64,000 nt of DNA from Beroe forskalii (lineage: Eukaryota > Ctenophora > Nuda > Beroida > Beroidae): contig WFMF01000044.1 of NCBI GenBank assembly GCA_011033025.1, positions 310,001-374,000 on the forward strand, given 5' to 3'. The translations under genes and the position numbers were made by a program. Under the pieces are notes generated by a model, which was given only the letters and a program-made list of their open reading frames with translations, searched no databases and had not been told where the DNA came from. Numbering within the stretch: position 1 is the stretch's first letter; every line of letters begins with the position of its first letter. This document shows, one piece after another, positions 1-60,790 of this stretch.

Positions 1-915
1 ACCCAAATTTACTTTGAATTCAATCCCCAAACTGGAGTTTCACGAAGCTTAGGTGATCTCCAGAGTTGTTTTAATGATATAAAGAACTGGATGGCATCTA
101 ACTTTCTTAAAATGAATGATGAAAAGACAGAAATAATGGAGTTTTATTCACCCTTTTCTCCATACCCACCTCAGCTGTCCTTCCTCCTCAATGAATGCGA
201 AATTAATCCCTCTGTTGAAACAAAGAACTTGGGGTTTTGGTTTGATGAGCATCTGTCGCTTGACTCTCAAATCAAAAAAGTGTCCCAGACATGCTATGAA
301 AACTTAAGAAAGCTGGGTCGTATTGGAAGTAAGCTGACTACAGATTTAAAAACACAGTTAGTGCATTCCTGCATCCACTCATTCATTGACAACTTTAATA
401 GCACCTACCTTGCTCTCTCACAAATCCAGTTAGCAAAGCTGCAAAAGATTCAGAATGCTGCAGTAAAATATATATTTGGTCTAAAAGGGAAAGAAAGATT
501 TCAGCCTATGTCACCCTTCTTGAAAAAGCTTCATTTCCTCCCAGTAGTATTTCGAATCAGGTATAAAGTGGCCCTACTGACCTTCAAATGTATAAATAAC
601 ATTGCTCCTGGCTATCTGTCAAACTTGTTGTCTATCAGACAAGTCAACTGCCACTCAATCAGAGCTGATAATGACTTTTTTCTTCTAGAACATCCCCCTG
701 CACCCAAACGTGTTAAGACAAGTGGGGCATTTAGCGTGGCAGCTCCCGTGGTATGGAACAATCTTCCCTATAACTTGCGCTCAATGTCAGAAATTGAACC
801 CTTCCGAATAGCATTAAAGACATATTTTTTCAGATGTGCATTCTCTGATAATGAATTTGAATTTGAATTTGAATATAATTTTACAGCACAATTACAATAT
901 ACATTTTTTCAATAA
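1..915 (+). pseudogene. LINE (CR1/L2-type) reverse transcriptase C-terminal fragment
   Basis: The frame is open from base 1, so the element enters from the left. It encodes the part of a non-LTR retrotransposon polyprotein that follows the RT catalytic core. A start-like block (IKNWMASNFLKMNDEKTE) is followed by the thumb region (LGFWFDEHLSLDSQI) and the typical C-terminal signature GAFSVAAPVVWNNLPYNLR. These are hallmarks of CR1/L2/Jockey-clade LINEs. The ORF ends at 915 beside a short (GAATTT)n run at about 850-877. No RT core is visible in the window, so this is a fragment here; whether the whole element is intact lies outside. It lies head-on to the second LINE (minus strand), and its protein differs from that one, so it is another family. 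Confidence 0.85.
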
Positions 916-1100
916 TTTATATAGAGGAACGTCTCGGTTGTGCTGAGGGACAGCACTTAGTCAATCATCAAGACTGTTAACAAGGCCACCCATTAAGGAA
1001 ATAATTATAATATATCAAATAATATGCTGAAAATAAATTGGTTAGTTAATTTCATAACACTCTCAATAAAGTGCATACTGTTAAGAATAAAATAAAAAGA
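916..1100. other. LINE 3' tail and spacer
   Basis: AT-rich sequence between the two convergent LINEs. It probably contains the 3' UTR of the plus-strand element. No gene is seen. Confidence 0.4.
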
Positions 1101-1514
1101 GTGTTTAACTTATTTACAGAAACATAAAGCTGTATTTTATTGACTTACCAAGGTCAGGCTGCATTTTAGTGACAATCCCAGGTCAATTCAAAATAATTTT
1201 AAGTTATAATTTAATTAAAAAGTCCCTCAGCAGCACAATAAATTCATTAAAATGAAAATGTAAAGAATGAGAAAATAAAAATTTAAAATCAATGGCAGTA
1301 CCTATTGTGATACTGGGGCAAGCAACAAAACATATAATAAAAATAGTTACTGTCAATTGAGAGGAAACTGCAACATTGTTATTCAGGGGGTATAAGAAAT
1401 TTATAGTATGAGCTAGTATCCAAAGCAAATAAATAACTTGATCCTTAGGACACTACACCTTAGGTTTATATATGTGGTCAAATGAATTGTTCAATGCATA
1501 GTTAGAGTCGCTAG

Positions 1515-2244
1515 TTACTGAGTCCAATAGATGAGTTTTGTATTTTTCCCAAAATCTTTTGGATCACTAATTCTTCTTAGTTCAAGTGGTATGCTATTCC
1601 ATGCCTTAGCACCTAAGTAATAAAAATTCTTCAGATTTTTTGATTTTGGAGTATAAAGATTACATTGGGCTCCATCCCTGCTTCCTCCAGATATGTAGTT
1701 GAATTTGTAGATAAAGTTAGATGGGCTATGTCCATTTAGTATTTTGAACATATAGGATGATAAGTGAACTTGGCGTCTTAAGTGTAGGGGGAGCCATTTC
1801 ATATCTCTATAAACGTTTATGCTGCTTTCAGTTTTTTCGACACCTAAGGCAATTTTAGCTACTTTCTTATATAGGATATCTAATTCTTGAAGCTTAGTCT
1901 TTGGAGCTCGGCCATATATAGTGTCTAAATAATCAAAGTGGGGTAACATTAGCAAACATTTTCCTATATTTTACAGGCAGTAGACTACTTCCTCTGTACA
2001 TAGCACCAATCCTCTTCTGGATCTTTTTCTTGATATAGTCAATATATCAAGTCTATCCTTACACTGAGATAACTTTTGCGACATATATTATCAAATAATA
2101 GTGCACCATCATCAGCAAACAGATATGGATGAGACAAGTTACATGCATTCACCAGATCATTGATATAGATACTAAATAGGAGTGGTCCAAGTAAACTACC
2201 TTGTGGAACCCCAAATTTAATACTGAGAAAGCTGCTTTCTTTAC
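1515..2244 (-). pseudogene. LINE ORF2, C-terminal RT part (broken)
   Basis: Continues ORF2 in another frame. The strand reads FGVPQGSLLGPLLFSIYIND (RT motif B) near 2205-2150 and FADDGALLFDN (motif C, the catalytic DD) near 2120-2090. A further junction follows, after which the frame from 1955 to 1515 gives the thumb and C-terminal region ending in AKAWNSIPLELR. Motif A, the segment holding the first catalytic Asp, is missing: the upstream ORF stops at 2245 after IIESK, and this part resumes at ATRFLGKESSF. About 50-70 residues are therefore gone. Sequence is also shortened around 2040-2090. The RT cannot be active. Confidence 0.85.
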
Positions 2245-4053
2245 CTAAAAATCTTGTGGCTTGCTTTCGATTATTGAGATTTTATCAAACATATCAAGAG
2301 TCAAATAAGTTGTTGAATGATTCTTCCTAAATCCATATTGACGGTCACTTAGAAGCTTGTTACTCTCAAAATAGTCTGTTAACTGTCCATTTACACAAAA
2401 TTCGATGCATTTTGATACAATTGGTAGAATAGAGATTGGCCTATAGTCATTAGGGTCATTGCTATCCCCACTTTTGAAAATTGGCGAGACAACAGCTAGT
2501 TTACAAGATTCTGGAAACTGACCTGTAGACAAGCTTAGATTAACAATGTGAGTAATACCATGAACAATGATAGGTAGGATGGATTTAATAACTTTTAATG
2601 GTAGCTTGTCATTTATAGCTTTATTCGATGACAATGATGATATGTAGGCTTTAATCGTGTCACTAGAAACTTCAGAGAAAGATGTGAAAGTAGAATCAGT
2701 GGCATTAGTTAAGAAATCTTTATAGCTTATGTTATTGTATATTGGAACTGTTGCATTTAACTTAGGGCCTATTTCACAGAAATGTTCATTCATAACTTCT
2801 GCTGTTAAAGAATTTTCATCTAACTGAGGTTGTGTGTTCGTTTTAGAGAGTAGATTTGTGGCTAGTTTAATTGATTTCCAAATCCCCTTCAGGTCATTTT
2901 TTGCACTTTTTGACTTAAGATCTTGAACTAGATTTTCTCGTTTGTTGTCCTTAGTTATTTTATTAGTTATGTTACGCTGTTTCCGATATTCATCCCATGC
3001 TAAGTGAGCATTCATACAATTATTGCAAACATTACAATTCCCACACCTAGATTCTTCTAACTTTTTAAGTTTTGCCTTAAATTTCCTGTGCAATTTCTTT
3101 TTGAGCCTAATGGCATCTAGACTTTTCTGAGAGGGTTTATAGATAAAACTTTCATGCTTCTTAATAGTTTTTAAGGGGAAGAAGTGGTCATGATATCTAT
3201 TCAGATGGGTCTCTAAGATAGCTACAGCTTTGTCAACTTGGTTACATTCGAAAAGTGGTTTCAGATTAATATTTGCTAGATATGTTTGGAAGGATTTAAT
3301 GTTGTTATTACTATAATCATGAAATGAAATCTTCTCAAACTTGGGAGGTTTTTCAACTTTGAAATTAAGTTCACACTTTATAGAAAAGTGATCACCAATT
3401 TTTTCTGGGAGTACTGTTGAAGTTTCAAAGTCAGCATAACAATTGGTTATTATTACATCAATAGTACTATAGGTGAACTTGTTACCTCTCTTAGCTATTC
3501 TGGTATAATTTTGAATCGTTTGGACCATATTAAAAGATTTAAGAGTGGAATCAAATTTCTTATAATCTGAATCATTAATCTTGTTTTGGTCTACATTGAT
3601 ATCTCCTATCCAAATAACCTTCTTGCCCTTAAGCTTTTTCATACATTCAGTAAAGTACTCTAAAAAGTCGTCTAGCTTACAATACCCACTAGAGCGGTAA
3701 AAACTGCATAAGTAATAGTTACTGCTTTTAATCCTTATCCATTTTGCTTCAATAGTAGGTGTATTAATGTTTACTTTCACTTTATCATCATAAGCAACTT
3801 TGTTACTAATTATCAAGCCACATCCACCCCTAGAGCCAGTACCCCTGTCCTGACGTAGAAAGGAATAGTTAGGAGGGATATTTAGAGTAGTATTAGCAAT
3901 AGTATCATTGAGATTTGTTTCATTTAAAGATAATATATCCATTTCATACTTTTTTATCATTTCTGAAATTTGAGTTGACTTTGATAAGCCAATAAGACCC
4001 CCCTGAATGTTGCAGTGACCTAAAATAAGGTTATGAGAGTTGATTGTAGTCAT
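2245..4053 (-). pseudogene. LINE ORF2, apurinic endonuclease and start of RT
   Basis: A 602-residue open frame. Residues 1-230 are an APE-like endonuclease: GHCNIQG (Asn), SLNETNL (Glu), IWIGDINVD (Asp/Asn) and GDHFSIK (Asp-His) are all present, so the nicking domain looks intact. A Cys-rich stretch, CGNCNVCNNCMNAH, lies around residue 340. The RT fingers begin near residue 500 with LAVVSPIFKSGD and DPNDYRPISIL, and the frame ends in FDKISIIESK at a deletion. The domain nicks target DNA to prime reverse transcription. It starts 75 bp after the ORF1 stop. Confidence 0.9.
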
Positions 4054-4127
4054 TTAACAATCAAGCAGGCAGAATAAAATGTGAATAATGTCATGCATGA
4101 AGGAGCAAGGTTGATTTAAGAAGTTAC

Positions 4128-4967
4128 TTAACAATCTTGATGAGAAAAATATTTCATGAATTTAGCTAGCCTAGCTACACCTTGATCATTTAAATGGACA
4201 TTATCAGAGCCATGACTGCTGAAAAAATCACTTTTCCTATACCCTGATTTGGTGCTAAAAAGGCTACGATCACATTCAGTTTTAATCATGTTAACATATG
4301 CACAATACTGACTTAAGTTTGATATATGCTTATTAAGTTCATTAATAACATAATTACGGCTTAAACTGACTCTTGGGAGAATGTTCAAAATATTGATACT
4401 TGCATTAGGGACCCATCCATGAATGAAGTTAGTAAGACTGATAATATCACGCTTTGTCTGATTGAGCTCAACTTCAGATATTGACAAATTCTGGACTCCG
4501 TTATAGTGGTCAACTTTCTGAACATTTAAGATCTGATCAACATTATTTGTTCCACATAACAGGTACACTTTGGATACACTATTGGGGTTGATTTGTCTAA
4601 TTCTGGCATCAGATTTAAGTCTGTTAAGGATAGATTTTGCAGATGCTCCTGGATAAGAAAATACATGAGCCTCTATTGAGCTTGAGGACATCTTGGCTTC
4701 TTTTATTCCTTTGAACATACTTGAACTGATGTACAACACAGTTTTCTTTTCAAGTAAGGGTTGATCCTCAGACAAATCTACAGATTCTGGTGGAGTCATG
4801 GGTAAAGATGAATGCATTTGTGTTATAGAGCTTAGTGATATATAGCCAGTAACTTGGCTATCAGTCCCTGGTTTTAGCATACGACATGTAATACTGATTC
4901 TAGGCTGGGTACTTGAATCAGGTGGCACACTATGCTCAAATACTGATTGTGATGCATGGCTCATCAC
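4128..4967 (-). pseudogene. LINE ORF1, C-terminal part: end of AlkB domain plus SGNH esterase
   Basis: The frame is open upstream to about 5030. It first completes the AlkB fold begun in the neighbouring frame: HHGELFVMSHASQ, then VFEHSVPP (second iron-binding His) and PRISITCR (2-oxoglutarate-binding Arg). A linker of about 40 residues follows. Next is an SGNH/GDSL-like hydrolase of about 190 residues: VLYISSSMFKG (nucleophile Ser block), FSYPGAS (Gly block), LLCGTNN (Asn block) and DNVHLNDQG (Asp-x-x-His). Esterases of this kind are known in CR1-type LINE ORF1 proteins, where their substrate is unclear. The split from the upstream frame looks like a one-base loss, not a real boundary, so the two entries are one original ORF1. 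Confidence 0.82.
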
Positions 4968-4990
4968 GAATAACTCTCCATGGTGTGGAG

Positions 4991-5677
4991 TTAGTTCAAC
5001 ATGTTCAGTGCTTCCAATTTTCTGAAATTAATAGTCCTAGATTGTCCCAAGGTTATTGTGCATATTTGTGAGCCTTCAACTATTTGAGCCTCATTGTCTG
5101 AATGATAGCCTAGGGAGTCATTTCCATTTTCGTACTTTGTGATTAGTGCACTATTAAACTGAAACTGAGGGAAATTATCACGCAAGTTGTCTAAGATAAG
5201 GCTTATTTGACTCTGCCCTATTGGCAGGGGACTTATTGGATGGGCCTGATTCCCATATTTGTAGGGATAGGGACTGTACAGGCAACTAGATCTATTACCA
5301 TGAAGCCTCAAGTAATTGGTTTCCTGGTCCAGAGCTTCAAATGAAAACTGTTCAAATGGATTCCCTTCCATACATTTAAATGGCTCTATGATACTACCTG
5401 ATAGATTGTCAGTGGGTGGTGGGGTGCTTGGTTCTGAGGTAACATTAGCTGCACAATAGATATCAAATAGTGTGTCTGACTGATCAACTTCAGGTGAAAC
5501 CTCTCCAGCATGATTTTCAACATTGAAATCAACCTGGGAAGCTTTATCAGCAGTCTCACGAAAAAATAGTTCAAATAGGTTGTCAAGTTTTTCTGTTAAC
5601 GCAGCAACTTCTGATTTGAGTTTGATACATTCTTCTTTCAAAACTGAACAATTAGAACAACTTGCTGATGAGTTCAT
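4991..5677 (-). pseudogene. LINE ORF1, N-terminal part: coiled coil and AlkB-like dioxygenase
   Basis: 228 residues. Residues 5-45 have a CSNC motif followed by a heptad-like helix (LKEECIKLKSEVAALTEKLDNL), the usual kind of oligomerisation segment in LINE ORF1. Residues 45-115 are acidic and disordered. From about residue 120 an AlkB/2OG-Fe(II) dioxygenase begins: FNSALITKYENGNDSLGYHS, then HSDNE giving the iron-binding H-x-D, then ICTITLGQSRTINFRK. The frame breaks at an A-run (plus-strand T-run 5018-5021). Reading one base back gives IGSTEHVEL and then the rest of the domain. AlkB enzymes remove alkyl lesions from DNA or RNA; the role here is inferred only. Confidence 0.8.
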
Positions 5678-5910
5678 TTAGAGGATATTTTGGTAGTTTA
5701 TGATCAAATACAAATACAAATACCACAGTGTTCAGAGTGAGTTGATGAGATGAGAGGATTCTAGATGAGGGAGGGCTCCTTTACTCTTCAACATAGCATG
5801 TCATTACTCCCCTTTGGGGGCATCATTCAACTCCATCTACCTGAATTAAGTTTCTTAATTATGGTTAAGCGGGTTATAAATGTGTGCTTTATTATTATTA
5901 TTATCAATAA
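5678..5910. other. LINE 5' UTR and a second LINE 3' end
   Basis: Just upstream of ORF1. On the plus strand, GCGGGTTATAAATGTGTGCT followed by (TTA)n near 5868-5905 looks like the 3' terminus of another CR1/L2-type LINE. No ORF is seen. Confidence 0.4.
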
Positions 5911-7289: not shown

Positions 7290-10200
7290 TTGATAAGAAA
7301 GTGGCGTCAGAGTACGATGCTCAGTTCGGTGACCCTACAGAAGCAATGCGGCACATCAGAGACCTTTACAAGGAGCAGATGAGAAGGAAGCAGCTTGAAT
7401 TAGGTGTGTGTTTGTGTAAATGAGTACAGTTTTTATAGCATTTAATGAATATTATTGGTATTAATTATGGTTATTATTGGTATCGCTTGTTGCACACGTT
7501 TAATTATAATCTAAAAGAGAGCCCTCAGCAGAATCTTTTCAGATAAACTTGAAAGCGAGAAGAAGGCTGCCAAATCAGCAGCATCCAAATCGCCAGCTAC
7601 CAAACTACCGACTCCCGATCTAGAGCCTGCTCCTGAACCTGATGACGAACCTGCTGAAGAATCTGAGGTGGTGGAACCGGAGAAACCTAAACCTATCTAC
7701 TGCTCTCCTATCAGAGCAGACAAACCCAAGGTAGAAACCTAAACCTAACTACTGCCCTCCTATTGTTTAAGTTTGAAGTCAGTAAGACTACAGGTTAGCT
7801 GGAAAGACATAAGGGACCTATAATAGGATCAGTAAACAGTAACAGTATAATAACATCAATATACTATTACAACACCTATCAGAGCAGGCAAACCCAAGGT
7901 AGAAACTTAAACCTATCTACTGCTCTCCTATCAGAGCAGACAAACCCAAGGTAGCAGGCAGTGAGAAGGGAATTGTTTGGTCGCTTAAACTTTCAAGTTT
8001 TACTCATTTATTAAATCAATGATTGATGCTAGATTGATGCTAGATTAACCAATATACAGACAGCTCATAATACAGACAGCTCATAATACAGACAGCTCAT
8101 GATACATATCACGTGACCTCGTGTTCAGTGTTCTACACACACTTCTCAGGTGCGAGGCTACGACCTGATAGCCCCCACCAAGCCCCCTAAGCTGTACTGG
8201 CAGTCCGAGTACAACTCGAGGTTTGGGAGTCCTGTCAAGAGCGAAGCTCCTGCTTCTGCGTACGGGAGACGCAGTCATCCTTACAAGCAGGCCAAGGTGC
8301 ATTTAGTTCATTGGAAGCTGAGTTTATATTAATTAAACTAATTAAGTATCGAGAAAGTCACTCATACCCCATACCTTGGTGAAAGAGACTTACCAAGTAA
8401 GAGAGAACAAATTGACCACCTATAAAGCTATTAGCATGGAAATTGTAGCTGCCTCAGCCTTCAAGTATAGCTGCGTTTGCTTGTGTGTATTTTAACCTCC
8501 TCCTCCTCCCCCCAACAGACGCCTGAGCGTGTTGGGGAGCTGATGAAACCCGATAAAAGTGTTGCTGTCATTACCCCATCCCCGCAGCCAGAGGTATGAT
8601 GTGCGTTAACTACGGTAGTACAGGGTAGTCGTCCTTATAATTTTGTTAATGCTATGATGTCTTGATGATTGATGATTGAATGTAGATTGTTTGATACTGG
8701 CTGAATGAGAGTTACAGAAGTTTTTAAGAAATTAAGAAGTGTCCAACCCTTGCCAGGTGAACTGGTACCAGGAGGTATTGGAACTGAGGAAGTTAGCTCA
8801 CCAGTTTAAAGCCAGGTCACATGGCACCCACTTCTCACCGCAGAAACTTGCAACCCTTGCTTTCTCCAATGCTCAGCTGCGCGAGCCTGAACCTGCCTTG
8901 CCTGCCACAGGTAACAGAGGTTTAGGAACTTTATTTAACTGGTATCACGTGGTTGAATTTCCAGCGTGAAGCAGTGTTTCCTGTAAGTCTGTATTCTAAT
9001 CAATGGCATTTCCTTGATAATGAATATCTGCCCCTATTTCTAGATATTAACATACTATGTTACAAGGAACAAACTGAAATCATTTTCCTTTTAATCAAAC
9101 AATAAGAAAACGTTTATATCAATAATCAACAAGTTAACAGCACCCTTTTCTCATTCATTGATAGCCCATTAAAAATTATATGGGGTAAGTGTATTAGCCA
9201 ATTTTGAGGGTACTTGTAGGCGTGTTTATTGCACTCCTCATCTAAATAGCATGGCAAATGGTCATGACGCTAATAAAATTATTGCACTCGGCTTCGCCTC
9301 GTGCAATAATTTGGTATTTACTCGGCCTGCTCCTCGTGCGACAATACATTATTGCACTCGGCTACGCCTCGTGCAATAATTTCTATTAGCGCATTCCCAG
9401 CCATGCTCTAAGCGTATATTAGCCAATTTTGAGGGTACTTGTAGGCGTGCAATAATAAGTAATATTGCACTCCTCACATTGGCTAATACACTAAGAGCAT
9501 GGCAAATGGTCATGACGCTAATAAAATTATTGCACTCGGCTTCGCCTCGTGCAATAATTTGATATTATTGCACTCGTCTTCGCCTCGTGCAATAATTTTT
9601 ATTAGCGCATTCCCAGCCATGCTCTAAGCGTATATTACCTACCCTCATCAAATAATAACACAAAAAAATGCGAAGGAATTAGAGTCCCTCTGGATCATCT
9701 GCACCCTCTGGAATCCTCAGCTCCTCTTTGAAAACCATGCTTTTGGGAACAAATGCTACTGGCTGACCGTCTCCGTCGTATTGTATTTCACCAATATGGT
9801 TCAACCCCAACTTCTCTTCTTTTTCGACAAATCTCTTGCATGCTTCACGGTTTTGTAGACATTCATCCTTATACATCTCGTTTACAATAGTTTCATCCAG
9901 ATTTTCATTTAATTCAAATCTTTCAAAATCAGAATCGAAATCTAGATCATCTTCGTCATCTTCAGCCTCATACCCTTCCCCATCTTCATTCCAAGAATCA
10001 GCGGCTTCTCGAACCTCTTTACTTGCACTTTCGTCAAAGAAATCTTCATCCTTTGCCTCGAATATTTCATCATAGTCATCGGTGTTATATTCATTGCTGG
10101 TGTCAATAACGCGTTGCCGGAGCTCCTCAAACAAATCTTCCAGACATTCTTCATCTCCTTCGCAGTGGTCGTCCACACTTTCCAGCAACACTGTCATCCT

Positions 10201-13110
10201 TGAAGCCCCACGGTCTCTATCACTTGGGTCGTAAGGGTCTTGGCTGATGTAATAAATGAGGTCATCAGTCACATCATTGATGCACATTTCCTCGCCGTCA
10301 CAGAAGTCGTCAATAAGATCTAGCAGTGTCAGGATGTTCCTCTTTTCCCTGATATCAGCACAGCGACTTAACGAAAAGATCATAGACAGCACTGCTGTGA
10401 GGAGTAAGCAAAGCTTCATTTTCAAATGTTTTGGAGACGATAGTCTTTTGAAAGGAATAAACGTAGTAGAAAACCGAAATCTGATGTTGGCAGGGAAATT
10501 TTCACGCTACTCCTTTATCAAAATTATCATGCTCTGTGCATTTGCTTTTATGATCAGGAACTTGAACCTTACAGGCGAGGATACATAGGGCCATAAATCT
10601 AATAAAGTAATAAAGGGATATTTCTTGTGGGTCACCCGAATCTCTTCTTACTTCCTACTTCAATTATATAATTTGAGGTATTATAGTATTATGTACACAA
10701 ATTATTTTGGCCAAGTTCTTGTTTCCTTGTAACCTTGTTAGTTGTAACGAATACCTTATGTATACATGTCGTTTTATTTCAGATTCAGAAGAATCAGTTG
10801 CTATAATTCCAAAAGAAAAACGGAGTCCTAAGAAAAAAGTAAGTCGTTAATGATATTGAATTGCAAAATAGAATCCATGTTGTCATGGAACCATTTTCAG
10901 TAGTAGACCAGTATGATTCAAATTTGTCCGGCACGCGCGAACGCCTAACGAAATTCTTTTTAAGCCTTTCATTTGTTGGCGCTGTCTGTAATAAAAACCC
11001 GGGAAAGACGCGCAACGAGTTCACAGTACAGACTGAGTCAGAGCCTCTATTGGGAATCTTTTTAACCAATTTAAGATTTTAGCAAATTTGAAATCATGAT
11101 TCAGAGCGACAACTTATTTAATACTACTCCTCGCAGGCTGAACCAAGTCCTAAAGCTGTTGCTATCAAGACTCCGGAACCAGTTGCAACCGAACCTGAGA
11201 CTGACCTAACGGTAACTGATCTCGAGGAAGACTGCCCGGATATCGAAAATCTCGTTATCAAGACTACATCACTTCCTGATGTACCAGAAAAGGCAACGCC
11301 ACCTCCATCAACATCGCCCAAGAATCCAGTAGAGAAGACCTCGACCACCAAATCGCCTAAGAAATCAACACCTGCCCCAAAATCAAAAGAACCAGCAGTG
11401 GAGAATGCAGCTTCAGAAGTTTCAACGCCGAGGACAGCAGATAGGACATGTACTCTCTTCGAAGGGAGAGTTGCCACCCCAAATCTAAGGAACATAGGAT
11501 CTCGACATCATCTCGATAGGACTACTCAGAAGCGGAAGGACGAGAGGTTTGGTTTTCGGCTGCAATTATCATGTTATCATGATTAAACTTGTGATCACTG
11601 GTGGGGACATGGGAGTTTTGTAAAGCCATTAAAGTGCCAGACATGCCCGCCGCAGGCGATTTTTTTGAAATTTAGATTTTTTATTGAATTTTGAGCATTT
11701 TCCAGCAATCTACCAAAAACTGAGGGGGACGTGTTCCCCATGTCCCCCAGGAATTGCGGGCTTGATGGGATATGGATGGAGTCGGTGGTGCTGTGGGTTG
11801 TTATTCGTTGTATCGAACTCCTTGCAGCAGAACGTTTCAATAATGGGCAGTGTGTCAGGGAGCCCGACTTATAACCTAGTCAGGCATTTCACCTCACGGC
11901 AATTTATCTCTCTCCTGACCCTAACCATATCCCTGACTAAACAAAACCCTTGATTCTTGCCCTAACCCTTACCAAGACCCTAACCTTTGCCTATAATTGA
12001 ATATGTGGTTAAGTGTCGTTCAGTACGCGGGGGGGGGGGCTGGGCGTTTTCGGTTCAGGCTTGATGGTTCATAATTTGGAAACCATGATGTTGGTATGAG
12101 TAAAGCTCTGAAGAACCTTTTAAGGGGCGGGGGAAACTTTTGAGGAAGGTCACAGTCAAGTTTCAGGTACACTTAATAATCAGACCCACTCGCTTATTTG
12201 GCAGCCCCCCTCTCAGAACGAAATATTGAATTGCCAAGCCAACCAAGTGGTGCGAGGACAAAACACCACCCGGACAAAGCGCCATCCGTAAAAAACACCA
12301 ACTCAGAGCACAAATTCCGCAAAGGAAACGTTCGTGACCCTGTGACACAATTTTACGGTTATGGTTAGAACGTATGGTCCGCACGAGTGTTCCCAACGCA
12401 CTCTGGGTGGCGTTTTGTCCGGGTGACATAGCTGAAATATTTGCATTTATGAGGACTACATAGCTAAACCATATCCTAATCTAGATTCAGCTAGAAAGTC
12501 CAAGCTTCTATTTTGTCCAGAAACTAATAATTTTGAAGCTCCTACTGATCATCAATATTCTTGAAGTTGTGATAAGGACCGCACGACCTCTTTCTCTTCA
12601 AGAATTATGATATTTCTGATTAGTGATTGTCGGATGTCCGTATACCTAACATTGACAAATTAGGATTTCCAGCAACATAGAAATGAAGACAGCCCTGCTA
12701 CCGGGACGGGCCGCAACCCCAGTCATCAAAGAGTCAAGACACCACCTCGACCCCACCACCCCAGTGGCCGCTGGAAAAGGAACTCAGCCATTCACTCCCC
12801 AGATGTCTGACAAGGTAATCTGTGTGGCAGGATCATCCATTACATTCATTGCGTTCAATTGAGAAAACGTTTGGTAGAATGCCTGAGTCTCTTTACCCAC
12901 TTCCTACCAATGTATAACCTTGTATTATCTATCTATTACTAGGTCCAGGAAAAGCTGGATTTTACGACTCCGACAAAGACTGCCGCCAAGGACGGCTGGA
13001 CGAAGGACCTGGACAAGTCGGTGCTGTCCCGGGCGTCGTCCTGCACGTCCCTGGCCAGTGCCACCCTGGATAAAGCGAAGCAGAGGAGCAATGACTTCTG
13101 GAAGAAGTAG
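7290..13110 (+). CDS. MDM1: MDM1 orthologue (microtubule/centriole-binding protein), partial 5'
   Basis: Nine exons with consistent phases: 7290-7403, 7543-7730, 8150-8296, 8519-8593, 8757-8910, 10783-10838, 11137-11546, 12673-12814 and 12943-13110 (stop TAG). Acceptors are all AG; donors are GT. Diagnostic features: two SEYxxxF motifs (SEYDAQF, exon 1; SEYNSRF, exon 3), the repeat type through which MDM1 binds microtubules; the segment VLELRKLAHQFKARSHGTHF in exon 5, matching the vertebrate LREKA...GTHFS block; SRHHLDPTTPV before the C-terminus; and the tail DKAKQRSNDFWKK, like the vertebrate KKRKENFW ending. Vertebrate MDM1 localises to centrioles and restrains their duplication; the same role here is inferred. 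N-terminal exons are missing from the window. The middle exons are Pro/Ser/Thr/Lys-rich and probably disordered. The 11546 donor (GTTTGG) is weak but gives the right phase. Confidence 0.87.
7870..7955 (+). repeat. Duplicated 3' end of MDM1 exon 2 with its splice donor
   Basis: The last 30-40 bases of exon 2 plus the donor (CCTATCAGAGCAGACAAACC, then CAAGGTAG) recur twice, around 7877-7905 and 7913-7953, inside the following intron. They create decoy donors. Neither copy has an obvious acceptor just upstream, so they are probably not exons. Confidence 0.7.
8911..9189. other. MDM1 intron sequence
   Basis: AT-rich intron 5 segment before the foldback repeats. No feature recognised. Confidence 0.5.
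9190..9645. repeat. Tandem pair of foldback (MITE-like) elements
   Basis: Two head-to-tail units (about 9198-9420 and 9418-9645) each start with GTATTAGCCAATTTTGAGGG or a related sequence. Each has outer inverted arms (GAGCATGGCAAATGGTCATG against the reverse of CCAGCCATGCTC) and an inner palindrome built on ATTATTGCACTCG...CGTGCAATAAT, which occurs several times. Each unit could fold into a long hairpin. There is no coding capacity. It lies in MDM1 intron 5. Confidence 0.8.
9679..10425 (-). CDS. Secreted or lumenal acidic protein with paired-Cys repeats, nested in MDM1 intron
   Basis: A single-exon, 248-residue ORF antisense in the MDM1 intron between exons 8757-8910 and 10783-10838. It starts with a clear signal peptide (MKMKLCLLLTAVLSMIFSLS, predicted cleavage near CADIR). 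The mature protein is strongly acidic, with Asp/Glu-rich stretches around residues 80-175. Two internal repeats are visible: DDFCDGEEMCINDVTDDL (about residues 40-57) and DDHCEGDEECLEDLFEEL (about 85-103). A third Cys pair, DECLQNREAC, lies near 190. There is no transmembrane segment after the signal and no ER-retention tail (it ends in DDPEGL). I do not recognise the family. An extracellular or secretory-pathway calcium-binding role would fit the charge but is a guess. Confidence 0.75.
   Translation of the reverse strand: MKMKLCLLLTAVLSMIFSLSRCADIREKRNILTLLDLIDDFCDGEEMCINDVTDDLIYYISQDPYDPSDRDRGASRMTVLLESVDDHCEGDEECLEDLFEELRQRVIDTSNEYNTDDYDEIFEAKDEDFFDESASKEVREAADSWNEDGEGYEAEDDEDDLDFDSDFERFELNENLDETIVNEMYKDECLQNREACKRFVEKEEKLGLNHIGEIQYDGDGQPVAFVPKSMVFKEELRIPEGADDPEGL
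10426..10782. other. MDM1 intron; upstream region of the nested acidic gene
   Basis: AT-rich intron sequence. It would hold the promoter of the antisense acidic gene, but no clear promoter motif was seen. Confidence 0.4.
11547..12672. other. MDM1 intron 7
   Basis: Non-coding. It contains degenerate CCCTAACC-like runs at about 11920-11985, a G-run at 12030-12039, and two oppositely oriented copies of a GGACAAAACGCCACCC-like sequence at about 12258-12290 and 12400-12427. No exon is recognised. Confidence 0.5.
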
Positions 13111-31845: not shown

Positions 31846-34800
31846 TCAAGTCTGAAGATTATGAACCTTTGGTACTACAATTTTTTCCTCAAAATTTCTC
31901 GTTCCATTCGCTTCACTTTTCCGAGTTTCACTATCTCCTCGGGTCTCTGCAGGTGCAGCAGAATCCGCATTTTCATTCATCACCACAGAATTTAGCTTTG
32001 TCTCTGCAGTACCCGTAGCTGCAGCCTTCCGCACGACAGAACTGCTACTGAAAACCTGCTGTCTTGGAGTCCTGCGGCCGCAGCACCACCGAGCAGCACT
32101 TGTTACTCCCCTCTCCGCGCAGCACTGCGCCGCAGTAGTCTCGGTGTTCTTGCAGCTCACCAGGCTGTAAGACATGTCCCAGAGCTTGCCGGGCACCTGG
32201 CTGATGTAGGGGTCGTAGAGCAGGGGTTGATCACGGAGTTGATGGGTAGCACGAACACGGAGAAGAAGCCGTACCATTGCGCCGCGTCCACCACCCGGAA
32301 GTAGTGCAGCGTGGACATGGTGATGAAGGGCAGCCAGCACAACGAGTCCGTGAGGATGATCAGCGTGATCTTGCGCTGCAGCGCCGTGTTGCGCTGGTTG
32401 AGGTCGCTGTTCTTGCGGCCGCTCTGCTGCCGGAGTTTGCGCGACGAGGTGATCGACTCCGCGTTTATCAGGATGTACGAGGCGGAGATAAGTGCGAAGC
32501 AGACGAAGTTCGTCAGCAGCACACTCGCCGTGTAGAACGCTTGCGGGTCGTCCGGCGTCACGAAGTACTTGAACAAGCACACGCCGTCGTTCCCGTAGAA
32601 GTGGAGTTTGGTGCCCCTGACGCCGCCGTAGCTCTGCGAGAACATGTCGTTGACAAGGCGCCGCACGGTGCGCCACGGCAGGTCAGGGGTCCCTCGGAAG
32701 GGGGAGTAGTACTTCTCCAGGATGCCTAGGTGGGTCCGCTTTGAGGGGGCGCCGATAAAGAGCTTAATGTCTTTCCGGTAGTGCAGCCCGTTCACAAACC
32801 TGTCCTCCATGTAGTTAATGAGAGGGATGTAGGATATGAGGAAGGAGGCGAGAGTCAAGAGAATCGTCAGGACTACAATCCTCGACCCGTTCCTGAGGTT
32901 AGGTCTCCTCGGAGGAATGAACACCTTGATTGTAATTACCCGGTGCAGAGAAAGGACCACCATGGCAAATAGCGACATCTGCGAGCCCATGCTGCTGACG
33001 ACGCCCATCACGGCGCAGTAGCCGCTAGTGAGCCAGGTGAAGCGGTCCCGGCAGTAGGAGTCTCGGAAGAGGATGTTGACGACGGAGAGGACGATGAGGT
33101 ACACTCCGACACACAGATCACCCAGACAGATCATGAGCGTCATCGTGCGGTTCAGAAGCTTGGTGGAGGTGATGATTTTGCGGAACTCAGACAATGATTT
33201 GACCAGGATGAAGGAGTTGAAGATCGTTGCCAGACAACCGATGACCCATGATGATACCACCAGCCACGTTTTGGTTCAGAATCCGAAGCGAATCCTCTCC
33301 GAAGCACTCGTCGGAAAAGTCGGAACAATCAAATACGCCATCCGCGACACTACTGATCGGGATGTACCGACCGCTATTTTCACACCGGAAATGGTTGGTA
33401 CAATTCTCTTCATCCGAGTGGTCCCCGCAGTCATCCACCAAGTTGCACACATCCGCATACGACACGCAGTACCCGTTCTTACACGCGAACAGGTCGCTCG
33501 AGTAGGAGCCCTTGACTTGGGTTGCAATGGTGAGGTACCGGTCGTCACTCAACGTGAAGACCCTGTGCTTGTTGATGTTATGACACGAGGCGAAGTTGAC
33601 AGGATTGAGGATGCAAGGGGCGTCGCCACACATTCCGCTGCAGCTGAGGTAAACGTAGTACTCCCCGAACTCGTGCTGGCAATCCCGCGGCGGTCCGATA
33701 AACAGGGACAGGGCGGCAACCCCGAACGGTTTGTCAGGGGACACGAAGTCGAAATGGCTGTGTTTCGTCAGGGAAGGTTCCCGTTCCAGGTCCTCCAAAC
33801 CTGGCAGGTAATACCCGATGTAGAGACCCTCTTCCCTCCTCACTACCACTCGGGTCTGTACTCGCGGCAGGTTCCGGGACACTTCGCAAATGTCAGATTC
33901 CTTGTCACAAAGGGACGCCCTGGAGCACAGAGCGCTCAAAGCCATGTAGTGGTGGGTGACGTTGGAGCAGATGAAGACATCGGAGCAGGGCGTGGTCAGG
34001 TCGACATACCTCCTGAGCCACCCCTCCCCGCAGGCCTGCCACGCGTCCACATCCTCATCCACGCCACCCAGACAGTCCTCCACCCCGTCCACCACCCAGT
34101 CGAGGGGGATGTAGCTCCCCCTCCCCTCCTGCTGCATCCCCCTCCCCTCCTGCTGCATCCGCCTCTCGCAGCGCTGCGTGGTCAGGACCTCACACATGGC
34201 GTGACTCTCGTCGTTCCCCTCTTTACAGTCCCTGTGTCCGTCACAGAACAGGTGCTTGTGGAGGACGCAACCTCCCTCCGCTGCTTCGCACATCCCGTCC
34301 AACTTATCATCGCACAGAGTGGTGGACTTGCAGACCGCGTAGCGAGACACGTGCGTTTCGTAGCCGCCTACTTTACAAAGGAGCGGGGAGTGCAGCACGT
34401 GGGAGCAGTTCAACTGGTCGGAGTAGTCCTGACACACCAGGTACAGCTCGTTAGGGACCGAGCAACGGTTGTGAGGTGTCAGTGTCACCGGCTTGCTGCC
34501 AAGATTCTCAGAGTTAGTACACCGGGCGAACTGGGGAGCTAATGCCTCGTCGCCATGGCAACCCATCTCGTCTGAAGCGTCTGCGCAGTCCTGGACCCCG
34601 TCACACAGGACAGATGGCGGGATGTAGGCCGTGTGCCAGGTGTTGAAACCTATCCTGATGTGGAAGGTGTTGAGGGGGCACTCCAGGCCGTAGTTGTGCA
34701 CGGAGTCGTCACACCCCACTTCATCCTGACAGAGGTAGCACCTGCACTCGCCGTTACACACTTCCCACATGGGCACCTGGAGGGGAGATTACTGTCAGGT

Positions 34801-50105: not shown

Positions 50106-50284
50106 GCATCTTATCCATGATACCGGAGAATGCTGATTAACAATGAAAATAACTTTCAAAAAATCGATCTTCTCATTTCAATGCAACAGCTAGGTAGTAG
50201 GTACTAAGCTCAAATAACAGGAGTATTGTAACTGTCGTGGTTGCCCAAACACCCAGTTATACCTTTCTCTGCAACACCCACCAC

Positions 50285-50640
50285 CCACATTCATCACATT
50301 CGACAGGGTGCCGGCCACATCTCTCCTAACACAGGGAGACCCCTCCCATCCACCACACACCAATCATCACATTCGACAGGGTGCCGGCCACATCCTCCTA
50401 ACACAGGAGACCCTCCCATCCACCACACACCAATCATCACATTCGACAGGGTGCCGGCCACATCCCTCCTAACACAGGGAGACCCCTCCCATCCACCACA
50501 CACCAATCATCACATTCGACAGGGTGCCGGCCACATCTCCCTAACACAGGGAGACCCCTCCCATCCACCACACACCAATCATCACATTCGACAGGGTGCC
50601 GGCCACATCTCCCTAACACAGGGAGACCCCTCCCATCCTT
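50285..50640. repeat. Minisatellite before transporter exon 8 (copy 1)
   Basis: Five units of about 70 bp containing ATTCGACAGGGTGCCGGCCA and CTAACACAGGGAGACC. Copy 2 has ten longer units. It lies about 200 bp upstream of the exon. Confidence 0.95.
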
Positions 50641-59540: not shown

Positions 59541-60014
59541 TTAGCGTTGGAGAATGATGCTATAGAAATACGACCCTGGTAATAGTAATATGAACAACTT
59601 ATTCTTCAAATAGTCAATACTCAATAGTGCGTCCAATTTTATAATGACCAACGATCTGCCCTGAAGTGGCATTGAGGAGGAACACTTATTACCAGCTAAT
59701 TCTTGATGAGTTCCTTCGTAATGAGATAATAACCGACCATCGAGGCACCAGGAGTTATGTGGCAATAAGATTGTTCATGTTCATTAATCGTTAATGTTCA
59801 TAAATCGCCAATGACTGCAGGACTAAAAGCCCATGCTGGCAATCAAATCCATGATACCAGAGAATGCTGATTAACGATGAAAATAACTTTCAAAAAATCG
59901 ATCTTCACATTTCAATTAAACAGGTAGGTAGTAGGCACTAAGCTCAAATAACAGGAGTATTTTAACTGTCGCGGTTGCCCAAACACCCAGTTATACCTTT
60001 CTCTGCAACACCCA

Positions 60015-60790
60015 CCAATCACCAATCACTACATTCGACAGGGTGCCGGCCACATCTCCCCTAACACAGGGAGACCCCTCCCATCATCTGCAACACCCAC
60101 CACTCACCAATCAGTACATTCGACAGGGTGCCGGCCACATCTCCCCTAACACAGGGAGACCCCTCCCATCATCTGCAACACCCACCACCCACCAATCAGT
60201 ACATTCGACAGGGTGCCGGCCACATCTCCCCTAACACAGGGAGACCCTCCCATCATCATCTGCAACACCCACCACCCACCAATCAGTACATTCGACAGGG
60301 TGCCGGCCACATCTCCCCTAACACAGGGAGACCCCTCCATCATCTGCAACACCCACCACCCACCAATCAGTACATTCGACAGGGTGCCGGCCACATCTCC
60401 CCTAACACAGGGAGACCCCTCCCATCATCTGCAACACCCACCACCCACCAATCAGTACATTCGACAGGGTGCCGGCCACATCTCCCCTAACACAGGGAGA
60501 CCCCTCCCATCATCTGCAACACCCACCACCCACCAATCAGTACATTCGACAGGGTGCCGGCCACATCTCCCTAACACAGGGAGACCCCTCCCATCATCTG
60601 CAACACCCACCACCCACCAATCAGTACATTCGACAGGGTGCCGGCCACATCTCCCTAACACAGGGAGACCCCTCCCATCATCTGCAACACCCACCACCCA
60701 CCAATCAGTACATTCGACAGGGTGCCGGCCACATCTCCCCTAACACAGGGAGACCCCTCCCATCCTCGGCAAACCAATCATTATATTCGA
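60015..60790. repeat. 85-bp minisatellite before transporter exon 8 (copy 2)
   Basis: Ten units of 83-85 bp with CAGTACATTCGACAGGGTGC, CACATCTCCCCTAACACAGG and CATCATCTGCAACACCCACC. The period is not a multiple of three, so overlapping open frames arise by chance. Confidence 0.95.

Follow-up and report, generated by a model that had tools for sequence, protein, structure and literature searches.

The DNA analyzed here, referred to below as the window, is a stretch of 64,000 nucleotides from the ctenophore Beroe forskalii (contig WFMF01000044.1, positions 310,001 to 374,000 of the forward strand), which forms part of contig C514 in a 216 Mb assembly. Near its beginning, on the minus strand, it carries a long interspersed element (LINE) whose first open reading frame (ORF1) joins a predicted long helix, a dioxygenase domain of the AlkB family and an SGNH hydrolase domain, and stands upstream of an ORF2 for an endonuclease (EN) and a reverse transcriptase (RT). 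The features of this copy, in window coordinates, are as follows.

854..5842, minus: whole decayed LINE copy, with its 3' end at about 854 and its 5' end between 5678 and 5842
4991..5677, minus: first ORF1 frame, open over 228 amino acids (aa), with the long helix and the N-terminal part of AlkB
5552..5656, minus: predicted long helix, read as a coiled coil and starting at a CxxC motif (helix 7-41 of the model of homolog P0001, mapped by eye)
5018..5359, minus: N-terminal part of AlkB, PF13532 positions 26-139, holding the HxD motif (Pfam 38.3 bits, cut-off 31.2)
4991..5027, minus: frame break within AlkB, where the two frames overlap and relatives are continuous
4128..5027, minus: second ORF1 frame, open over 299 aa, with the remaining AlkB, a linker and SGNH
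4881..4997, minus: C-terminal part of AlkB, with the distal His and RxxxxxR (Pfam positions 148-194, 16.1 bits, alone below cut-off)
4131..4742, minus: SGNH hydrolase domain (Ser, CGTNN and DNVHLN motifs; fold from the P0001 model)
2245..4053, minus: ORF2, APE-type endonuclease and start of the RT (PF03372 30.6 bits, cut-off 24.5; RVT_1 24.2, cut-off 29.6)
2039..2281, minus: ORF2 continued in another frame, RT palm (RVT_1 33.2 bits)
1515..1970, minus: C-terminal region of ORF2 past the RT, like that of copy L063 by eye
854..880, minus: 3' tail of short repeats, (ATTCAA)n, seen in the sequence and also ending copy L078

An earlier, sequence-only reading of this locus had named AlkB and SGNH motifs in an ORF1 upstream of an EN-RT frame, and both the motifs and the gene order hold on the minus strand: HSDNE lies at 5104-5090, VFEHSVPP at 4943-4920 and PRISITCR at 4904-4881, followed by the SGNH blocks YISSSMF (4733-4713), CGTNN (4556-4542) and DNVHLN (4205-4188). 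All five AlkB residues are present when the two ORF1 pieces are combined. The window copy is nevertheless a dead LINE, with its frame broken inside AlkB and two deletions in its RT. About 146 nucleotides (nt) at position ~2279 and about 193 nt at ~2045-2052 are missing relative to an alignment with L078, and matches to other copies are interrupted at both points as well (within 2045-2281). Introns in ORF2 were considered and rejected, as the extra sequence in L063 and L078 is coding RT and the junctions are not GT-AG by eye; without intron signs there, the gaps are two deletions in the window copy. Comparison of the window ORF2 with solved structures gave weak, irrelevant matches only, and its C-terminal part is presumably Jockey-superfamily-like. 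The 3' end of the LINE is given by the matches of other copies, which end at ~852-855. An unrelated contig, L077, has the window flank 672-853 and then the flank again from 5843, with ~209 other bases between the two, so that it is not a clean empty site; neither such a site nor a target-site duplication was obtained. Window positions 1-853 are a repeat of another kind (99% similar at C1058, 74-81% similar at a number of further contigs), and the LINE seems to have inserted into it.

The fusion of helix, AlkB and SGNH, which is split over two overlapping frames in the window copy, is found in a single frame in relatives. Searches of the genome with the two ORF1 pieces returned 153 and 53 matches, among them unbroken copies with one open frame of ~500-600 aa that comprises the long helix, AlkB and SGNH and is followed by an EN-RT ORF. 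The AlkB profile passed its cut-off at all 150 scored loci (of 189 candidates), a few of which are host ALKBH genes as judged by tree and look. Conversely, AlkB was also present at 24 of the 30 loci found with the SGNH piece, and the other 6 lack the N-terminal segment as well, the pattern that 5' truncation would give. In 56 of 72 locus rows (~36 distinct elements, many having been fetched twice), ORF1 has an endonuclease match beside it on the same strand, at distances from a 34 nt overlap to a 249 nt gap; no EN match was found in the remaining 16 rows, three of which are host genes with little flank.

Profile and structure comparisons agree on the identity of the AlkB domain, as the sequence-only reading had proposed. 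PF13532 scored 60-80 bits in nine of nine proteins of one set and 58-68 bits in six of six of another, and the AlkB part of the predicted structures matches ALKBH2 and ALKBH3, which are also the best matches among AlkB homologs of known structure (ALKBH3 102.9 bits versus ALKBH5 19.1). On profile and fold, the domain is thus ALKBH2/3-like and not ALKBH5-like. The SGNH assignment stands on the predicted fold, in which the C-terminal part matches SGNH esterases, on the residues and on the relatives, but not on the Pfam score of the window piece (Lipase_GDSL_2 17.6 bits, cut-off 32.9). A GDSL family is above cut-off in L067 and L068 (Lipase_GDSL 24.9 versus 23.6) and below it in the other scanned proteins; precomputed PF13472 is present in 4/85 and 2/51 homologs. 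As to the coiled coil of the earlier reading, the P0001 model contains a 35-residue helix (residues 7-41), and the call was made from this helix and from Pfam leucine-zipper and coil matches, all of them below cut-off, rather than from a coiled-coil program. No RRM or CCHC family is listed for the scanned ORF1s at E values up to 0.1. The CxxC at the start of the helix (window ~5659-5648, minus) shows conservation of 90% or more among 62 homologs and is possibly a metal site shared between chains.

The catalytic residues are kept across copies. Among the own-genome ORF1 frames of at least 416 aa, the AlkB residues H, D, H, R and R are retained in 26/26 and the SGNH residues S, N, D and H in 20/26, the other six ending or shifting before the last motif; shorter frames (e.g., L029, L037 and L039) are excluded from these counts and contribute to the ratio of nonsynonymous to synonymous substitution rates (dN/dS). 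All nine residues are invariant in a 62-row alignment and in a set of 22 divergent ORF1 rows. Because alignments A1 (62 of 85 homologs) and A3 (42 of 51), which share rows with each other and with A4, leave homologs out (mostly shorter ones, plus P0041, P0084, P0070, P0075 and P0080), residues were also counted over all 174 distinct homologs: 162 have the full AlkB set, 9 have gaps in it and 3 have changes, and for SGNH the corresponding numbers are 154, 15 and 5. Six pairs from three subfamilies (AlkB dS 0.48-0.73) gave dN/dS values of 0.12-0.19 in AlkB and 0.08-0.13 in SGNH, and the N-terminal part gave 0.35-0.64 (three pairs). These six are drawn from 24 pairs, of which the younger are noisier (AlkB 0.08-0.68), one is the same locus taken twice and one is near saturation. 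Both domains are under purifying selection and, judging by their residues, both look like active enzymes in the relatives, so that the elements seem to bring along a repair or mark-erasing enzyme of their own.

The two enzymes occur in several ORF1 designs. In L064, L066 and L071, a PHD-like Cys-rich front, with weak profile matches to PHD-bearing chains, precedes AlkB and SGNH; in L069 and L070, a repeat coiled coil precedes them. The pair is also found in a short form, L068, and in L032. By eye, the next ORF in L064, L066, L069, L070 and L071 opens with a Cys-rich stretch ahead of the endonuclease. The order is reversed in L067 (755-2200, plus strand) and L076 (1377-2800, plus strand), where SGNH precedes AlkB in one frame and long Pro-rich repeats follow; this protein, of which the genome holds two long copies and a few fragments, has no EN found nearby and is not shown to be a LINE product. 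Of the 174 homologs, two are named to species, both from Mnemiopsis leidyi, and two more are named alkylated DNA repair dioxygenase AlkB. The Mnemiopsis protein P0041 has matches of only 31-47% in the Beroe genome. We give about even odds to the broader idea that AlkB and SGNH together form an ancient and widespread two-enzyme core of LINE ORF1, perhaps of early-branching or marine animals, that comes in several designs (with a plain helix, a PHD-like Cys-rich front or a repeat coiled coil, perhaps even with swapped order), and that would give LINEs their own RNA/cDNA repair enzyme to clear RT-blocking methylations.

ALKBH2 and ALKBH3 repair N1-methyladenosine (m1A) and 3-methylcytidine (m3C). 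These modifications block common reverse transcriptases, and m1A affects tRNA cloning with an R2 RT (PMC12140624). In the same work, m1A and m3C were lost upon AlkB treatment and 3' tRNA fragments increased, with intact tRNAs modestly changed. Since m1A and m3C block RTs and enzymes of the ALKBH2/3 type remove them, the ORF1 protein (ORF1p) could clear template RNA or single-stranded cDNA. Our working hypothesis, to which we assign a probability of roughly 0.55, is that ORF1p is a two-enzyme protein, composed of a helix, an ALKBH2/3-like Fe(II)/2-oxoglutarate demethylase and an SGNH esterase, that serves the repair of the element's RNA or cDNA; the domains and their order, the conserved residues, the selection, the EN-RT linkage and the many copies and several families are computed, and we infer catalysis, substrate and a benefit to retrotransposition. 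The N-terminal helix, probably a coiled coil, would multimerize ORF1p, which would accompany the element RNA, and the AlkB domain would strip methyl lesions or marks on the Watson-Crick face (m1A, m3C) from template RNA or single-stranded cDNA, where they would otherwise bring the element's RT to a halt. Contact with membranes or lipids, the role put forward for esterase ORF1s, would fall to the SGNH domain, which by analogy probably acts as in the zebrafish element ZfL2-1.

The earlier reading had also considered that the domain might erase host methyl marks that silence the element. In the form weighed here, the marks would be N6-methyladenosine in RNA (m6A) or N6-methyladenine in DNA (6mA), and their removal would let the element escape silencing or degradation. 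We regard this as unlikely: an ALKBH5-like protein of an orchid Ty3/Gypsy element demethylates m6A RNA in vitro (PMC9289625), and in mouse stem cells without Alkbh1 N6-mA on young L1s increases together with silencing (PMC4982230), but ALKBH5 lowers L1 activity in human cells (PMC7873242), and the ALKBH2/3-like character of the domain makes m6A erasure less likely and fits repair of element RNA or cDNA better than erasure of silencing marks. By sequence, removal of the RT-blocking m1A and m3C is favored over m6A erasure. That AlkB mainly serves as a nucleic-acid-binding module in place of RRM or CCHC, with catalysis minor, would suit the lack of listed RRM and CCHC families and the observation that the ZfL2-1 esterase alone does not bind oligo-A RNA (PMC3905857); complete metal ligands and both Arg in 162/174 homologs, with changes in just 3, exceed what mere binding would need, and we consider this option distinctly improbable.

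AlkB homologs as a group have varied substrates, and the profile of the PHD-like ORF1 type matches ALKBH8 as well (47.6 bits), so oxidation of another substrate (a host protein, a tRNA or a lipid) unrelated to the element's nucleic acid was weighed too. The closest relatives, ALKBH2 and ALKBH3, act on nucleic acid, however, and we see this as a long shot. That AlkB came in by chance or as a captured host exon and does nothing for the element, as the broken window copy could suggest, has next to no probability and was rejected, given the AlkB scores at the 150 loci, its presence at most SGNH-found loci, the many copies, the purifying selection and the conserved residues.

Several observations weigh against our working hypothesis or stand beside it. 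AlkB residues are changed in P0124, P0131 and P0168 and SGNH residues in P0080, P0105, P0156, P0161 and P0168, and the position that we take to be the equivalent of N120 of Escherichia coli AlkB, which contacts 2-oxoglutarate, is by eye a T in the window family. The Mnemiopsis protein P0084 retains the AlkB residues together with the Ser and Asn motifs of SGNH; its C-terminal part looks unlike the others in a smaller comparison, and it was scored complete in the 174-homolog alignment. In the AlkB tree, which comprises 72 of 134 extracted domains and covers host ALKBH2/3 and element domains, a single branch (support 94, not starred) separates host from element rows, and some branches are long; since the element domains stand apart from host ALKBH2/3, their substrate could have shifted. 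No EN was found in L005, L007, L017, L021, L026, L028, L030, L031 and L060 despite 0.9-1.6 kb downstream, and these are probably broken copies. EN matches are likewise missing at L032 and L068 (more than 1.3 kb of room) and at L067 and L076 (more than 2.3 kb), which are therefore candidate LINEs only; a short frame downstream of ORF1 in L068 resembles, by eye, the start of an EN. The PHD label is weak, with 15.0 bits in L064 against a Pfam cut-off of 30.6 and no listing in L066 and L071.

Elsewhere in the window, four other features were noticed, the first three of them by eye. At 32157-34788 (minus), Cys-rich repeats resembling low-density lipoprotein (LDL) receptor class A (LDLa) are followed by a seven-helix receptor-like frame, which looks like a host G-protein-coupled receptor with LDLa repeats. 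A 275-aa acidic frame at 9679-10506 (minus) begins much like a signal peptide and repeats acidic motifs that contain Cys, and the short palindrome-like stretches (TGCACTCGGCTTCGCCTCGTGCAATAAT-like) that recur at 9240-9640 may be a small mobile element. Tandem arrays of closely related 72-85 bp units occur twice, at 60002-60772 and 50278-50638, ~10 kb apart.

Among known systems, the type IV (esterase) ORF1 of CR1/L2-type LINEs, exemplified by ZfL2-1 (PMC3905857, PMC4120745), is alike in having a coiled coil and SGNH upstream of EN-RT and in keeping the Ser, Asn, Asp and His; here, in contrast, the helix and the esterase are separated by an AlkB domain. The ZfL2-1 esterase structure 4c1b is matched by the larger ORF1 type's profile (23.5 bits, E 1.8e-4) and, weakly, by that of the window type (12.0 bits, E 0.58). 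Counting from the catalytic Asn, the position of the transposon-specific His (H191 of ZfL2-1) carries L, M, F or N in 62/62 window-type rows and, by the same spacing, H in 25 of the 41 larger-type rows with a letter there. The ZfL2-1 SGNH domain hydrolyzes acetyl esters and binds liposomes, and CR1, RTEX and Penelope elements from many phyla are reported to contain esterases (PMC3905857).

Retroelement-borne demethylases have one precedent that we found, the Phalaenopsis Ty3/Gypsy element (PMC9289625; also PMC12786077), a long terminal repeat (LTR) retrotransposon that encodes an AlkB-family demethylase as a separate ALKBH5-like ORF with in vitro activity. Our element is not of this type, given its ALKBH3-leaning scores and non-LTR EN-RT: it is a LINE with an ALKBH2/3-like domain, a predicted enzyme, fused into ORF1, in many copies and families. 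The AlkB of plant Flexiviridae is argued to repair methylated RNA of a replicating RNA that brings its own enzyme, but it belongs to a positive-strand RNA virus polyprotein with neither RT nor esterase (PMC544882). Host ALKBH3 and ALKBH2, the best sequence and fold matches, are repair enzymes without this fusion. The ORF1 domains recorded for 448 Jockey-superfamily elements in one survey are RRM, CCHC, PHD, esterase and Tnp22, AlkB being absent from the survey's Table 1 and main text (PMC4120745); AlkB goes unmentioned in the main text of the ZfL2-1 paper (PMC3905857), and the parts available of PMC6015446, PMC12786077 and PMC9406493 name only host ALKBHs or the orchid element. A LINE-borne AlkB was not found in the literature searched, whose coverage excluded Repbase Reports and most subscription journals, so an earlier notice in Repbase or elsewhere is possible.

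If our proposal is true, a LINE brings its own nucleic acid demethylase in the protein that accompanies its RNA. In these elements, AlkB also comes naturally paired with a non-LTR RT, a class of enzyme that m1A affects when it is used on tRNA (PMC12140624). It would become directly testable whether retrotransposition is limited by methyl lesions or marks on the template RNA, and the family would provide a natural test bed for ORF1 enzymes.
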